Below the pieces are notes generated by a model. That model made no database searches, was not told the DNA's origin, and saw only the letters and a list, made by a program, of their open reading frames with translations. The position numbers were made by a program, and so were the translations under genes. A DNA stretch of 64,000 bases from Rhizobacter sp. AJA081-3 (GTDB lineage Bacteria; Pseudomonadota; Gammaproteobacteria; Burkholderiales; Burkholderiaceae_C), in the NCBI RefSeq assembly GCF_017795745.1, contig NZ_CP059067.1, forward strand, positions 2,418,001 to 2,482,000, read 5' to 3'. This document shows, piece after piece, positions 9,744 through 17,590 of this stretch. The stretch's first letter is position 1. Every line of letters starts with the position of its first letter.

Positions 9744-11567
9744 ATGACCCTGACCAGGACCACCGAGGAAGAAGTCCGGCGCGAGTTGCTCGAACTCGCC
9801 TTGCACAACGCCGGCCGCAGCGTGTGGGCGCAGGCGATCGTGGTCGGCTTCATCGTCTGGCTGGGCTGGCGCGCACAGAAGGTCGACGAAGCCATCATCG
9901 CCGGCGCGATCGGCTACCTCGGCACGGCGTGGCGGTGGTGGCTGGCGCGTCGGTATGCCGACACCTCCCGGCTCGACGAACACGGCCTTCGCCACGCGAG
10001 CCAGTCGCTGCAGGGCAATGCCGCGATGGCGGGAGCGTTCTGGATGGCCGCGGTGATCGGCATCTATGCCCACCAGTCCGGCAGCGAGGCCACGGCGTTC
10101 ATGGTGATGGCCTGCGGCTCCACCGCCGTCGCCGCGTACTTCATGTCCCTCGTCGGCCATTCGTTCCTGCTGCTCGCGGTGCCGCAGATCGGCGCGGTGA
10201 TCGCGGTGTGCCTGCTGGTCGAGCAGGTGCGCTCGGTGCCGCTGGCCGTGCTGTCGGTGATCTATGGCCTGACGATGTACCGGGCCGCGCGCGAGTTCAC
10301 GCTGGCCACCACCCGCGCGGTGCGCCATGGACTCGAAGTCGACGCTGCCAACGCTTCGCTGCAGCGGGCCAAGGCGCTGACCGAGGCCGCCAATGCCTCG
10401 CTGCAGCGCGCCAAGGAGGCGGCCGACGCCGCCAACATGGCGAAGTCGCAGTTCCTCGCCACCATGAGCCACGAAATCCGCACGCCGATGAACGGCGTGC
10501 TCGGTGCGCTCGAGTTGCTGCGCGGCTCCAAGCTCGACCCGCAGCAGCGCCGGCTCGTCAAGACGGCGGCGTCTTCGGGCGAGTCGCTGATGACGATCCT
10601 CAACGACGTGCTCGACCATTCCAAGATCGAGGCCGGCAAGCTCAACCTCGGCCGCTCGCCGCTGTCGCTCCATTCCACCGCCGCGTCGGTGATCGCGCTG
10701 TTCCGCGCCAATGCCGAGGCCAAGGGCCTGGCGCTGGTGCTCGATCTCGAGCCGATGGTGTCCAACCACGTGCTGGGCGACGCGCAGCGGCTCAAGCAGG
10801 TGCTGCTCAACCTGGTGGGCAACGCGATCAAGTTCACCGAGCGCGGCGGCGTGTCGCTGCGCCTGAGCTCCGGCCGTGTCTCGACGGACCGCGCGCAAGT
10901 GCGCTTCGAAGTGATCGACAGCGGCATCGGCGTGCCGCGCGACGCACAGAACGAATTGTTCCAGCCCTTCCACCAGGTCGACGGATCGCGCAGCCGCCGC
11001 GCAGGCGGCACCGGCCTGGGCCTGGCGATCAGCCAGAAGATCGTCGAGGCGATGGGCGGGCACATCGAGATCGAGAGCCAGCCCGGGCGCGGTTCGTCGT
11101 TCCACTTCACGCTGGGTTTCGACCTCGATCCCAACCCACCCTCCGGCGACGTCCTCGACTCGTCGATGACACCGCTGGACCCCTTGCCCTCCCGGCTGGC
11201 GGGCACCGTGCTGGTGGTCGAGGACAACCCGGTGAATCGCATCATCGCCGAGGAGATGCTCGAATCGCTGGGGCTCGATTGCATCGAGGCGCAAGACGGC
11301 GTCGAGGCCCTGGACGTGCTCTCGCGCCGCTCCGTCGACCTGGTGCTGATGGACTGCCAGATGCCGGTGATGGACGGCTACACCGCCACCCAGCACATCC
11401 GCGCCCGCGAGCTGACGCAACGCCTGCCGCGCACGCCGATCGTCGCGCTGACGGCCAATGCCTACGAGGAAGACGCGGCCCACGCACTCGAGGTGGGCAT
11501 GGACGCCCACCTGGCCAAGCCTTACACGCGCGATCAACTGCGCGAGATCATCTCCACCTGGCTGTGA
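9744..11567 (+). CDS. Hybrid sensor histidine kinase/response regulator, candidate DSF sensor
   Basis: A 607-residue inner-membrane kinase. Residues ~28-185 hold about five hydrophobic segments with little periplasmic material, then a coiled-coil linker (200-235), a HisKA domain with H243 in S-H-E-I-R-T-P-M, an HATPase domain ([24 protein letters not shown]), and a receiver domain whose phospho-acceptor is Asp537 ([11 protein letters not shown]). A multi-helix input lacking a sensor loop is also seen in RpfC, the DSF sensor of Xanthomonas. Unlike RpfC there is no C-terminal HPt domain, so a separate phosphotransfer protein would be needed. It converges on the rpfF-like gene. No Shine-Dalgarno sequence is present; a TATGCT hexamer at 9729-9734 suggests a leaderless start. 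Confidence 0.9.
10344..10415 (+). repeat. Two-copy 42-base direct repeat coding the kinase signalling helix
   Basis: Copies at 10344-10373 and 10386-10415 are near identical over 30 bases with a 42-base period. They encode the 14-residue units [14 protein letters not shown] and [14 protein letters not shown]. Fourteen residues equal two heptads, so the duplication lengthens the coiled coil without altering its register. Confidence 0.75.
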
Positions 11568-11583
11568 GCCGCAGGCTCACAGC
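11561..11583. terminator. Perfect hairpin containing both convergent stop codons
   Basis: GCTGTGAGCC (11561-11570) and GGCTCACAGC (11574-11583) form a 10-bp stem with a GCA loop. The kinase stop (11565-11567) and the rpfF-like stop (11577-11579) both lie inside it, so the same structure ends both transcripts. No T-run follows on either side, so it may act as an mRNA 3' stabiliser or a weak bidirectional terminator. Confidence 0.6.
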
Positions 11584-12560
11584 GCGCCCCAGGCCGTCAG
11601 GCCCGTGCCGCGCTCCTCGTCCCAGCCGGTGTTGCCGCTGCGCAGCTCGCCCCAGGCCGTGTCGAGCTCGATTCGCTTGAGCTCTTCGACCGCGCCGTCG
11701 TCCGCGCCGCCGGCCTTGCGCACCTGGGCGCGCGCCAGCCGCTCCATCAAGCGCAGGTCGCGCGTGGTCAGCGTCAGGGCCGTCTCGGCCCACAGCTCCA
11801 CCACCTCGAGCAGCGACTCGTAGGTGATCGGTGCAGCCACGCGCTGCGCGTTCAGTGCCGCCAGCGTGCCGCGCAGCCGCGGGTCGACGGTACGCACCAC
11901 CTCGAGGATGGCCGCCTCGCCCATGCCGTCGTCGATCACCGCGTCGACCAGGCTGCGCCGCGCGAGCTGTTCGGCGGTGTAGAGCCGGCCGCTGAGGATC
12001 ATGTCCTTGGCCACCGAGAAGCCGGCCTTGCGGATCGTCAGCGGCCAGGCGCCCATGCCAGGGAACAGGTTGAACAGCACTTCGGGGAAGCCGGCCTGCG
12101 CGCTGCGCTCGAAGATCACCTTGTGGAAGGGCAGCACCGACTCCAGCCCGCCGCCGAGCGTGTCGCCCTGCACCAGCACGGTGGTGTGCACACCGCGCTG
12201 CGCCGCATGCTCGAGCCACCAGACCAGGTCGACGCAGCGGCGGCCGTACATCTTCAGCGAGTCGACGTCTTGCGCGCGCACCAGCAGCACGAACAACGCG
12301 AGGTCGCCACCGAAGTTGAACACGCCGGTCACGTCGGAACTCAGCACGAGGTGGCGTACCACGCCCGGACTTTCGGCGATGTCGTCGAGCACGCGTTGCA
12401 TCTCGGTCAGGCCGGCGAGGCTGTAGCACTGGATCGGCTTGACGCAGGTGCGCACGCGCAGCATGCCGAGTTCAGAAGTCCATTCGAGACGCAGGTACTT
12501 GTAGGGGCGGGAGAGCAGCCGGGGCAGGCCGGCGGGAGCGAGAACCGGAGTCGTCGTCAT
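11577..12560 (-). CDS. rpfF: DSF synthase, RpfF-type crotonase
   Basis: A 327-residue crotonase-fold protein of the RpfF branch, which makes cis-2-unsaturated fatty-acid signals (diffusible signal factors) from 3-hydroxyacyl-ACP by dehydration and thioester cleavage. Diagnostic stretches are V-F-N-F-G-G-D-L-A-L-F (80-90), Q-G-D-T-L-G-G-G-L-E (131-140) and G-F-P-E-V-L-F-N-L-F-P-G-M-G (157-170). Glu140 and Glu160 align with the catalytic Glu141 and Glu161 of Xanthomonas campestris RpfF. Beyond the family length it has a C-terminal extension of about 40 residues. The start overlaps the stop of the diiron-protein gene (ATGA), so the two are co-translated. The best match is the DSF synthase family, not an ordinary beta-oxidation hydratase. 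Confidence 0.85.
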   Translation of the reverse strand: MTTTPVLAPAGLPRLLSRPYKYLRLEWTSELGMLRVRTCVKPIQCYSLAGLTEMQRVLDDIAESPGVVRHLVLSSDVTGVFNFGGDLALFVLLVRAQDVDSLKMYGRRCVDLVWWLEHAAQRGVHTTVLVQGDTLGGGLESVLPFHKVIFERSAQAGFPEVLFNLFPGMGAWPLTIRKAGFSVAKDMILSGRLYTAEQLARRSLVDAVIDDGMGEAAILEVVRTVDPRLRGTLAALNAQRVAAPITYESLLEVVELWAETALTLTTRDLRLMERLARAQVRKAGGADDGAVEELKRIELDTAWGELRSGNTGWDEERGTGLTAWGAL

Positions 12561-13204
12561 ACCTGTTCAATGATGCGCGTGAAGTGGTGGAAGTTCAGCA
12601 GCGCAGCGTCGACGACCGCGTCGCATGCCGGTTCATCCTCGAGGGTGTTGAGGATCTTGCGCAGGTCGGCCATGTGCTCGGCATCCATCGTGGCGTGCGA
12701 GTTGATGAACGACACACCCCGCTCGCCCTCGAGCAGCAGCGACTCCTTGATCGCCGAGGCGAACGGGCCGCCGTACACCGAGGCGATCACCTCCAGCGTA
12801 TAGAGCATGCCCAGCACCGAGCAGGGGTTGAGGCGATCGGCGGCCCAGTAGTTGTAGCCCACCAGCGCACGCGTGAAGGCCGAGGGCGCGTAGGCCTGCG
12901 TGGTGGCCGCCGGCACGCCCACCGCATCGAGGTCGTTGCGTACCCACTCCTCGTGGCCCGATTCCTCGTGCATGTGCTCGTAGAGGAAGTAGCGCACCTG
13001 CTTGTGGCTGTCATCCAGGCGGCTGGCCGCCGCCGCGCTCACCGGGTTGAAGTGCCACACCACGTGGTAGAGCTCGAGCAGCAACGTGCGGTAGCGCTCC
13101 AGCGGCAGGCCCTGGGCCACCGCATCCAGCAACACCGGATGTGTCTCGAAGGCACGGCGTGCCTCATCGGTGCGGACCACCAGGTCCGCAAAAAACATCG
13201 ACAT
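12557..13204 (-). CDS. Haem-oxygenase-like diiron oxidase (HDO) family protein
   Basis: A 215-residue all-helical protein of the TenA/haem-oxygenase-like 'iron-containing redox enzyme' group. Candidate metal ligands are Glu44 and His47 (L-E-L-Y-H), Glu81 and His84 (H-E-E-S-G-H), Glu138, and the H170-x3-D174-x2-H177 motif. As I recall, that last spacing is the one seen in CADD-type HDO enzymes. Family members oxidise fatty acids, amino acids or pABA precursors with O2; UndA, for example, decarboxylates medium-chain fatty acids. The start at 13204 follows a GGAG site; longer reading is not conserved. It is the first gene of the operon with the DSF synthase, so its substrate may be a fatty-acyl compound (inference). 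Confidence 0.8.
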   Translation of the reverse strand: MSMFFADLVVRTDEARRAFETHPVLLDAVAQGLPLERYRTLLLELYHVVWHFNPVSAAAASRLDDSHKQVRYFLYEHMHEESGHEEWVRNDLDAVGVPAATTQAYAPSAFTRALVGYNYWAADRLNPCSVLGMLYTLEVIASVYGGPFASAIKESLLLEGERGVSFINSHATMDAEHMADLRKILNTLEDEPACDAVVDAALLNFHHFTRIIEQV

Positions 13205-13217
13205 CGATTTTCTCCAA

Positions 13218-14954: not shown

Positions 14955-16793
14955 ATGGACAAGCGGCAGGGTTGGCACGTCGGCTACTGGATCATCGCGC
15001 TGTCGCTGCTGATGCTCGCGCAGAGCTACTGGCAGGGCGCGTCGGTGATCGAGGTGGTGCCCTACAGCGTGTTCGAGCAGGCGCTCGCCGAGGGCCGCAT
15101 CGCCGAAGTGACGGTGACCGACCGCAGCCTCAGCGGCCGGCTCAAGTCGCCCGAGGCCGGCAAGTCGCTGATGGTGGCCACGCGGGTGGAGCCCGACCTC
15201 GCCGCGCGGCTCGAGAAATACGGCGTGCCCTACACGCGGGTCGTCGAGAGCCCGCTGCTGCGCGACCTGCTGTCGTGGATCGTGCCGGCGCTGGTCTTCT
15301 TCGCGCTGTGGTACTTCGTCATCCGCCGCCTGGCCGACAAGCAAGGCATGGGCGGCTTCATGGCCATCGGCAAGAGCCGCGCGAAGGTCTATGTGGAGAC
15401 CGACACCGGCGTGGACTTCGCTGACGTGGCCGGCGTCGACGAGGCCAAGGACGAACTCAAGGAGGTGGTCGACTTCCTGAAGCACCCGAAGGAGTACGGT
15501 CGCCTGGGCGCACACATCCCCAAGGGCGTGCTGCTGGTCGGCCCGCCGGGCACCGGCAAGACGCTGCTGGCCAAGGCCGTGGCCGGCGAGGCCGGCGTGC
15601 CCTTCTTCTCGATTTCCGGCAGCGAGTTCGTCGAGATGTTCGTCGGCGTCGGCGCAGCGCGCGTGCGCGACCTGTTCGAGCAGGCGCGGCTGCAGGCGCC
15701 GGCGATCATCTTCATCGACGAACTCGACGCGCTCGGCCGCGCGCGCGGCGCCTTCCCTGGCCTCGGCGGGCACGACGAGAAAGAGCAGACGCTGAACCAG
15801 CTGCTCGTCGAGATGGACGGCTTCGACACCTCGTCGGGGCTGATCATCCTGGCCGCCACCAACCGGCCGGAGATCCTCGACACCGCGCTGCTGCGCGCCG
15901 GCCGCTTCGACCGCCAGGTGCTGGTCGACCGGCCCGACAAGAAGGGCCGCGCCGACATCCTGCAAGTGCACGTGCGCAAGGTGAAGCTCGCCCTTGGCGT
16001 GAAGCTCGACGAGGTGGCCGGCATCACCGCCGGCTTCAGCGGCGCCGACCTCGCCAACCTGGTCAACGAGGCGGCCCTCGCGGCCACGCGGCGCCATGCC
16101 GACGAGGTGACGCTCGCAGATTTCACCACGGCGGTGGAGCGCATCGTCGCCGGCCTGGAGCGGCGAAGCCGCGTGCTCAATGCGAGCGAGCGGCGCGCCG
16201 TCGCCTTCCACGAGATGGGCCATGCGCTGGTGGCGCTGTCGCAGCCGGGCAGCGACCCGGTGCACAAGGTGTCGATCATCCCGCGCGGCATCGGCGCGCT
16301 CGGCTACACGATCCAGCGGCCCACCGAAGACCGCTACCTGATGACGCGCGCCGAGCTGGAACGCAAGATCGCCGTGCTGCTGGGCGGCCGCGCGGCCGAG
16401 ATGCTGGTGCTCGGAGAGCTCTCCACCGGCGCCGCCGACGACATCGCCAAGGCCACCGACATCGCCCGCGAGATGGTCACGCGCTACGGCATGGACGCCG
16501 GGCTGGGCCACGTGGCCTACGACGCACCACGCAGCCCCGCGCCGGAGTTCCCCCTGGGCTGGAACGGCAATGCGCGCACGCTGTCAGAAGACACGTTGCG
16601 CCGCGTCGATGCCGCGGTGGCCGCGCTCGTGGCGGCGGGGTTCGAGAGCGCGACCCGCCTGCTGACGATGCACCGTGCCGTGCTCGAGCGCGGCGCGCAG
16701 GCGCTGCTGGAGCGCGAGACACTCGACGAATCCGCACTCAAGGCGTTGACCGCCGGCCTGCGCGAGACCGATCAGCGGCCGACGATGGCGTAG
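14955..16793 (+). CDS. ftsH: FtsH-type ATP-dependent zinc metalloprotease (paralogue)
   Basis: A 612-residue membrane AAA+ protease. Two membrane helices (about 10-27 and 104-122) bracket a short periplasmic domain. Then come the AAA module with Walker A G196-P-P-G-T-G-K-T, Walker B I-I-F-I-D-E-L-D and the pore motif F-V-G-V-G-A, and the peptidase domain with zinc motif H419-E-M-G-H423, where Ala of the usual HEAGH is replaced by Met. It degrades membrane and regulatory proteins. It is not in the usual rrmJ-ftsH-folP context, so it is probably a second FtsH. Its last 22 bases overlap the convergent PF10118 gene. Confidence 0.93.
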
Positions 16794-17590
16794 TCCTGCG
16801 TGTGCTCGCTGAGCCAGCGCTGCGACAGCGCGGCGTCCTGCTGGCGCGGGTGGAAGTCGGGCTTGAAGTAGGCCTTCCACGGCCGGTAGATCTCGCGCAG
16901 CAGCCCTTCGGGCGCGAACAGCAGCTGCCAGCCGCTGCGCCAGGTGCGTGCCTTGAACAGCTCGCCGTCGTGCCACAGGTTGCGCAGCGTCTGGCGGAAC
17001 ACGTCGAGCAGGAAATGCGCGGTGACGATGCGCATGAAGCGGCCGCGCCACAGCTCGCTGCCGCCGAGCGTGCAATACAGGTCGAAAGCGGTGCTGCGGT
17101 GCTCGGATTCCTCGGAGGCGTGCCACATCCACAGCGTCTGCAGCCGCGGCTCGGCGCCAGCCAGGCAGTCGGGGTGGCGCAGCGTCCACTCGGCGAAGAT
17201 CGCCGTGATGTGCTCGGTGGCCGCAGTGGCCGCCACCCAGGCGCGAGGGTCCACGCCTTCCAGGCGCTTGAGCCGCCGTGCGGCCCGCTCGGCCCAGCGG
17301 TTCTGGTGGCCCTGCTTCTCGAGATGCGCGTTGAAGAGCGCGTGCAGCCGGCGGTGCGTCGCCTCCTGGCCGATGAAGCCCTGCACCTCGGCGGCCATCG
17401 CTTCGCGCTGCGCCTCGGGCAGCGACTTCATGCCCAGCTTCACCGCGTCGATGAAGAACTGCTCGCCGACCGGGAAACTCATCGACAGCGCGTTGAACCA
17501 GGCCGTGCGGAAGGCGTCGCCGCCGTTCCAGTGGCGCGCGATCGGCGCGTCGAGGTCAATCAGCAGGCGGCGGATGGTCAGGTCGGTCAT
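16772..17590 (-). CDS. Predicted metal-dependent hydrolase (PF10118)
   Basis: A 272-residue helical protein of the 'predicted metal-dependent hydrolase' family PF10118 (COG3687), with a ferritin-like pattern of Glu/His pairs: E-x-x-F at 43, E-x-T-H-R-R-L-H near 75, E-H-I-T near 125, and H-A-S-E-E-S-E-H-R near 156. These would bind a di-metal centre. Biochemical activity is not established. Its 3' end overlaps the ftsH coding end by 22 bases on the opposite strand. It is followed within 13 bases by an unknown small gene upstream on the same strand, so those genes may form one operon. Confidence 0.85.
   Translation of the reverse strand: MTDLTIRRLLIDLDAPIARHWNGGDAFRTAWFNALSMSFPVGEQFFIDAVKLGMKSLPEAQREAMAAEVQGFIGQEATHRRLHALFNAHLEKQGHQNRWAERAARRLKRLEGVDPRAWVAATAATEHITAIFAEWTLRHPDCLAGAEPRLQTLWMWHASEESEHRSTAFDLYCTLGGSELWRGRFMRIVTAHFLLDVFRQTLRNLWHDGELFKARTWRSGWQLLFAPEGLLREIYRPWKAYFKPDFHPRQQDAALSQRWLSEHTQDYAIVGR

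Follow-up and report, generated by a model that had tools for sequence, protein, structure and literature searches.

The window, by which we mean the whole stretch of 64,000 nucleotides that was analyzed, contains two overlapping genes on the minus strand that encode an RpfF-like crotonase and a haem-oxygenase-like protein of the HDO superfamily, and these genes face a hybrid histidine kinase gene (Table 1). The ATGA shared by the two genes, which the preliminary description of this DNA had reported, was seen at the stop of the HDO gene and the start of the crotonase gene.

Table 1. Features of the gene pair and its surroundings (positions within the window)
Feature	Position	Strand	Details and basis
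HDO gene	12557-13204	-	215 aa (P0002); Haem_oxygenas_2; ATG at 13204
RpfF-like crotonase gene	11577-12560	-	327 aa (P0001); PDB and family searches, tree
ATGA stop/start overlap, HDO/crotonase	12557-12560	-	Sequence
GGAGA, ribosome-binding-site-like, 6 bases 5' of HDO start	13211-13215	-	Sequence
Hybrid histidine kinase gene, convergent to the pair; putative receptor	9744-11567	+	607 aa; Pfam HisKA, HATPase, receiver
Kinase sensor domain, aa 1-215	9744-10388	+	Alignment A4, hydropathy, AlphaFold2
Protein of the predicted metal-dependent hydrolase family, located a few kb away from the pair	16772-17590	-	PF10118, 255 bits

The crotonase carries both of the motifs that had been ascribed to it, VFNFGGDLALF and EVLFNLFPGMG. 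Its Glu140 and Glu160 lie, as had also been claimed, at the glutamate positions of RpfF, each opposite a glutamate of the Xanthomonas protein (PDB 3m6m), in GGGFEAAL and LPEVLF respectively; we take these two glutamates to be the catalytic E141 and E161. Both residues are invariant across the 13 rows of the crotonase alignment (A2). Among its PDB matches the best four, at E 7.7e-46 to 6.3e-39, were 3m6m and 6dgn, which are named RpfF, and 7zq7 and 5fus, which are not so named; the next PDB crotonase followed at E 1.4e-11, and the other crotonases of the window's own genome matched at E 4.6e-9 or weaker only. The protein passes PRK08788 (NF006452; 295.5 against a cut-off of 177) and lies below the cut-off of the NCBIfam RpfF equivalog NF053515 (182.7 bits vs 550). 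As a calibration, NF053515 gave 184.1, a failing score, for a row grouping with the Cronobacter protein (6dgn) and 580.2, a passing one, for a Xanthomonas-type row, and both rows scored 412.1 on PRK08788. These scores show that the equivalog is narrow and that the window crotonase is in addition a somewhat divergent member of PRK08788.

A tree of 62 rows placed the crotonase inside the RpfF clade, in line with the preliminary assignment: 59 RpfF-like rows, including both PDB RpfF sequences, split from three other crotonases at 100/100. Within this clade the window crotonase belongs to a group of 14 HDO-linked rows (100/100), whose union with the Xanthomonas RpfF group has a support of only 82/91. 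The closer members have a C-terminal tail beyond the region aligned with RpfF, and less of this tail is present in distant ones. The window crotonase thus belongs to the RpfF family, and we infer that it shares RpfF chemistry, i.e. DSF synthesis.

The HDO matched Pfam Haem_oxygenas_2 (PF14518) at 75.8 bits, above the cut-off of 28.9, and the nearest named relative, a Piscinibacter MAG (L066), has an HDO that is 99% identical. The H170-x3-D174-x2-H177 motif described earlier is present and forms part of a wider conserved set of putative metal ligands, E81, H84, E138, H170, D174 and H177 (3-His/3-carboxylate), which aligns with the ligand set of UndA and CADD; in a 25-row HDO alignment D174 is conserved in at least 90% of rows and the other five are invariant. 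The protein has both the haem-oxygenase-like fold, in an AlphaFold2 model with a pLDDT of 95 and a pTM of 0.90, and the ligand set of the HDO superfamily. In the structure comparison that the preliminary description had suggested, CADD and UndA were indeed among the best PDB matches, the UndA matches including a complex with beta-hydroxydodecanoic acid. Matches of about equal quality were obtained with true haem oxygenases and with TenA proteins, so that the fold alone leaves the chemistry undecided. Similarity to UndA, a fatty-acid decarboxylase that is also an HDO, is distant (E 1.5e-4 with the HDO profile and approximately 16% identity). The HDO superfamily has more than 10,000 members, of which about a dozen have been characterized, according to section 4 of a review (PMC13108848). 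The review describes the substrate as coordinated at iron in substrate-bound HDOs, and its section 7 describes UndA as binding lauric acid via the carboxylate at Fe1 (PMC13108848).

Recurrence of the gene pair was examined in 149 relative genomes and in a scan of GTDB species genomes. Among the relatives, 28 had an HDO match at E 1e-5, and in 13 of these 28 the HDO was at least 69% identical, giving 14 loci, all of which had an adjoining crotonase. A full-length crotonase of the window clade was absent from the rest of the 149 genomes, where other crotonases reached at most 45% identity; one genome (G085) held a 113-residue crotonase stretch of 46% identity and no HDO. Sixteen of the 19 more distant HDO matches were fetched, and none had a crotonase within its 1.5-kb flanks. 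At three loci (L010, L048 and L071, the last from Piscinibacter aquaticus KACC 15278) the crotonase reading frame is split into two overlapping pieces; for these broken frames a sequencing error is possible, since the genome is 77% complete.

The GTDB scan used the HDO alignment only, seeded with two conserved peptides, and HDOs that have neither of these were missed. It produced 72 HDO loci, 69 of which had enough flank to test; in the remaining three (L118, L121 and L133) a contig edge lies inside the HDO. An RpfF-like gene stands beside the HDO in all 69 testable loci, which bears out the association proposed in the preliminary description, and this adjacency is unselected because the search used the HDO alone. 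The 69 arrangements comprise 57 tandem loci with the HDO followed by the crotonase, one reversed (L134), eight convergent (L123-L129 and L132) and three fused (L135, L136 and L137); an automatic tally of 59 tandem loci included the reversed L134 as well as L118, whose weak crotonase 3 kb away is not counted here. A contig end cuts the crotonase in L095, L097 and L126 and the HDO in L130 and L131. Two of the fused ORFs (L135 and L136) carry ECH_1 together with Haem_oxygenas_2 in Pfam and the third carries both motifs, and the fused RpfF-HDO protein occurs in some alphaproteobacteria. Since the pair recurs at 14 of 14 loci in close relatives and at 69 of 69 testable loci in the scan, the pairing of HDO and crotonase is not due to chance. 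Neither of the two outcomes that the preliminary description had named as weakening the link, a crotonase outside the RpfF clade and HDO and rpfF genes that are never neighbors, was thus obtained. The genome titles include Piscinibacter, Rhizobacter, Rubrivivax, Azohydromonas, Schlegelella, Methylibium, Lacisediminimonas and alphaproteobacterial MAGs, among others. Four MAG titles, Glaciihabitans, Silanimonas, Gemmatimonadaceae and Bordetella parapertussis (L111, L114, L131 and L133), are odd given the burkholderialean-type HDO-crotonase or HDO-kinase genes at these loci, and binning or naming errors are likely.

At one of the convergent loci, L128, the HDO lies within an rpf cluster in which a Pfam scan gave the order RpfG-like gene (receiver and HD), RpfC-like gene, HDO and convergent rpfF. 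The RpfC-like protein of 848 aa has HisKA, HATPase, receiver and Hpt domains, and its receiver matches RpfC in the PDB (3m6m_D) at 111 bits, against 66.6 for the next chain that consists of a receiver only. Judged from ORFs, the same gene order, with similar sizes and starts, is present in L124, L127 and L132. A further rpf cluster (L198), whose RpfF is 62% identical to that of L128, contains no HDO. Hybrid kinases are encoded near L134, where the protein has an Hpt domain, and near L136, where a receiver-PAS-kinase protein is encoded as well. A sample of 398 genomes across the phylum had a crotonase above the cut-off in 62 genomes and an HDO at E 1e-10 in 83, and a comparison by eye of the places listed found the two adjacent in the window's genome only; none of 17 other RpfF-like regions from relatives (of the order or family) had an HDO match. 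With adjacency in one of 62 crotonase genomes and an HDO in none of these 17 regions, the HDO is an optional part in a minority of RpfF systems.

In a tree of the HDOs, 25 rpf-linked sequences form one clade (84/85) apart from 45 unlinked ones (98/79). The HDO-linked rows of the crotonase tree are scattered over several groups, with four changes of label, at least two of which are forced. This pattern of a single clade of linked HDOs and scattered linked crotonases indicates either that one HDO lineage joined several RpfF lineages or that it was lost repeatedly. The unlinked sister HDOs share approximately 30% identity and the same ligand motif with the rpf-linked HDO; they differ in forming a separate clade and in having a crotonase in the fetched flanks of none of the 45 loci. 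The eight sister loci that were read (L215-L222) contain a recurring group of T_hemolysin, AMP-binding ligase, HDO, SDR and TPR genes, and Pfam, where scanned, supported T_hemolysin in two of two, the ligase in four of four, the SDR in one of one and TPR in two of two. A literature search found no described function for this gene group. The acyl-activating neighbors would suit an acyl substrate for the sister branch, a fit that falls short of proof.

The sensor of the neighboring kinase was present in 13 of the 149 relatives, exactly the 13 that hold the gene pair. The probability that sensor and pair would coincide fully by chance in the five pair genomes from outside the genus is 2.3e-9 with ancestry ignored, and because ancestry is ignored the real weight of this number is smaller. 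In 11 of the 13 genomes the sensor is no more than about 2.5 kb away from the crotonase; one of the other two (G067) has only a divergent sensor type (31%) approximately 230 kb from the pair, and in the other (G007) the sensor is on a different contig and the pair is at a contig end. By a crude clustering of ORFs, the kinase was in the flank of 39 of 59 loci and missing from 20. Pfam gave no match for the sensor, which is predicted from hydropathy and an AlphaFold2 model (pLDDT 93.4) to have about six transmembrane helices.

The comparisons made spoke against RpfC as an identity for this kinase. It had no Hpt match at E 0.01, unlike the RpfC-like protein of L128, and its sensor (A4) had no detectable relation to RpfC-type sensors (A5), with an hhalign probability of 0.3. 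RpfC-type sensors were found in eight of the 149 relatives, among the pair genomes weakly in G003 only (E 1.6e-9), and a search of the window's genome (G000) for such a sensor found none. Two genomes (G117 and G147) have RpfC-type sensors and no RpfF-like crotonase at E 1e-20, and these may be orphan receptors. CqsS and LqsS are quorum-sensing hybrid kinases whose signals and synthases differ from those considered here. They resemble the window kinase in architecture, with about six transmembrane helices, a kinase and receiver and no Hpt.

An RpfF-family crotonase is common to the window, to the Xanthomonas rpfF-rpfC-rpfG DSF system, whose RpfC-like and RpfG-like genes L128 also shares, and to the RpfF-RpfR (BDSF) system of Burkholderia and Cronobacter; the row that groups with 6dgn has, as given above, an NF053515 score close to that of the window crotonase. 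The Xanthomonas system differs in its receptor, the window kinase having neither the Hpt nor the sensor of RpfC. It has, to our knowledge, no HDO, and the ORF list of a Xanthomonas-type locus (L138) contained none in its 3.9 kb. We likewise know of no HDO partner for RpfF-RpfR and of no link between UndA and rpfF. In the Burkholderia and Cronobacter system the receptor is described as RpfR (PMC4698668). A search of the open-licence literature found no report of an HDO paired with RpfF. The synthase family has been described before, as has the family of the receptor at some of the loci; the HDO partner would, as far as this search reached, be new to DSF/Rpf systems.

On balance, we lean toward the view that the two genes form the core biosynthetic unit of a DSF-type signaling system with an added oxidation step, and that the HDO finishes the signal. 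RpfF enzymes release a free acid from a precursor that is an ACP thioester. In the scheme that we favor, the RpfF-like crotonase would dehydrate a 3-hydroxyacyl-ACP and free a cis-2-enoic fatty acid or a related one; the HDO, being co-translated, would hold this free acid by its carboxylate at the dimetal site and, with O2, oxidize its chain by desaturation, hydroxylation or C-C cleavage; and the oxidized product would be the mature signal. In the window lineage this signal would probably be read by the neighboring hybrid kinase, and an RpfC would take this role in other lineages. As the substrate of the HDO we prefer the released acid over the acyl precursor because that precursor is a thioester and because HDOs coordinate the substrate at iron, as noted above.

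Both enzymes might instead make an oxidized fatty acid, a hydrocarbon or a lipid precursor for some other purpose, the kinase being only co-inherited. The sister HDOs, which adjoin acyl ligases and SDRs without rpfF, would agree with this, as would the absence of the kinase from the flank of many loci and the inflation of co-occurrence by shared ancestry. We regard it as unlikely, given that the HDO is found also inside an RpfC/RpfG-type cluster and that no kinase sensor occurs without the pair among the 149 genomes, five of the pair genomes lying outside the genus.

Slightly less probable again is signal turnover, in which the HDO would destroy the DSF-type acid by UndA-like decarboxylation or another oxidation and so end or limit the signal, as RpfB does in Xanthomonas. 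With the two reading frames overlapping in the window, and with synthase and HDO fused in L135-L137, turnover would create a futile cycle, which argues against it even though the structural relative UndA cleaves medium-chain fatty acids and rpf systems do have turnover enzymes, RpfB being described as deactivating DSF (PMC10226988). It is from the fusion or translational coupling of synthase and oxygenase that we infer sequential synthesis rather than turnover.

We find it improbable that the HDO serves in precursor supply or oxygen gating, acting on the acyl chain before RpfF or binding metal and O2 to regulate RpfF. Fusion and coupling would suit a regulatory partner too, but the full 3-His/3-carboxylate set is retained, as expected of an enzyme, and the coordination of substrate at iron described for HDOs suits a free acid, not an ACP thioester. 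We can hardly credit the reading of the HDO as a p-aminobenzoate synthase of the CADD type, or as a haem oxygenase, that lies next to rpfF by chance: both are among its best fold matches, but the CADD model TIGR04305 scored 21.0 bits, far below its cut-off of 200, Pfam Heme_oxygenase gave no match to P0002 at E 0.01, and the adjacency held throughout the testable loci.

Among quorum-sensing signals, those of the DSF type form one of the main families. The variety known among them has been attributed to the length, branching and unsaturation of the chain, which fatty-acid synthesis sets. If HDO-dependent oxidation of the signal is real, the coupling of an oxygenase to the synthase would add a new way of diversifying the signal and would tie signaling to oxygen, and the HDO superfamily would gain a signaling role. 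We propose more tentatively, and with somewhat less than even confidence, that oxidized DSF-type acids may form a separate, O2-dependent class of quorum signals that is made by the RpfF-HDO unit, is read in the window lineage by a hybrid kinase that is dedicated to it and whose sensor differs from the RpfC type, and reports both cell density and oxygen. The favored scheme would predict that environmental bacteria available in culture (Piscinibacter, Rhizobacter, Azohydromonas and Schlegelella) have an undescribed molecule and receptor.

Copy number of the pair and of the sensor varied among the relatives. One genome (G005) has two HDO-crotonase pairs (L012 and L035) and three kinase sensors, and in another (G003) a single pair is accompanied by two sensors. 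In G005 the second pair is similar to the pair of G067, and both of these genomes have a sensor of the same divergent type (31%).
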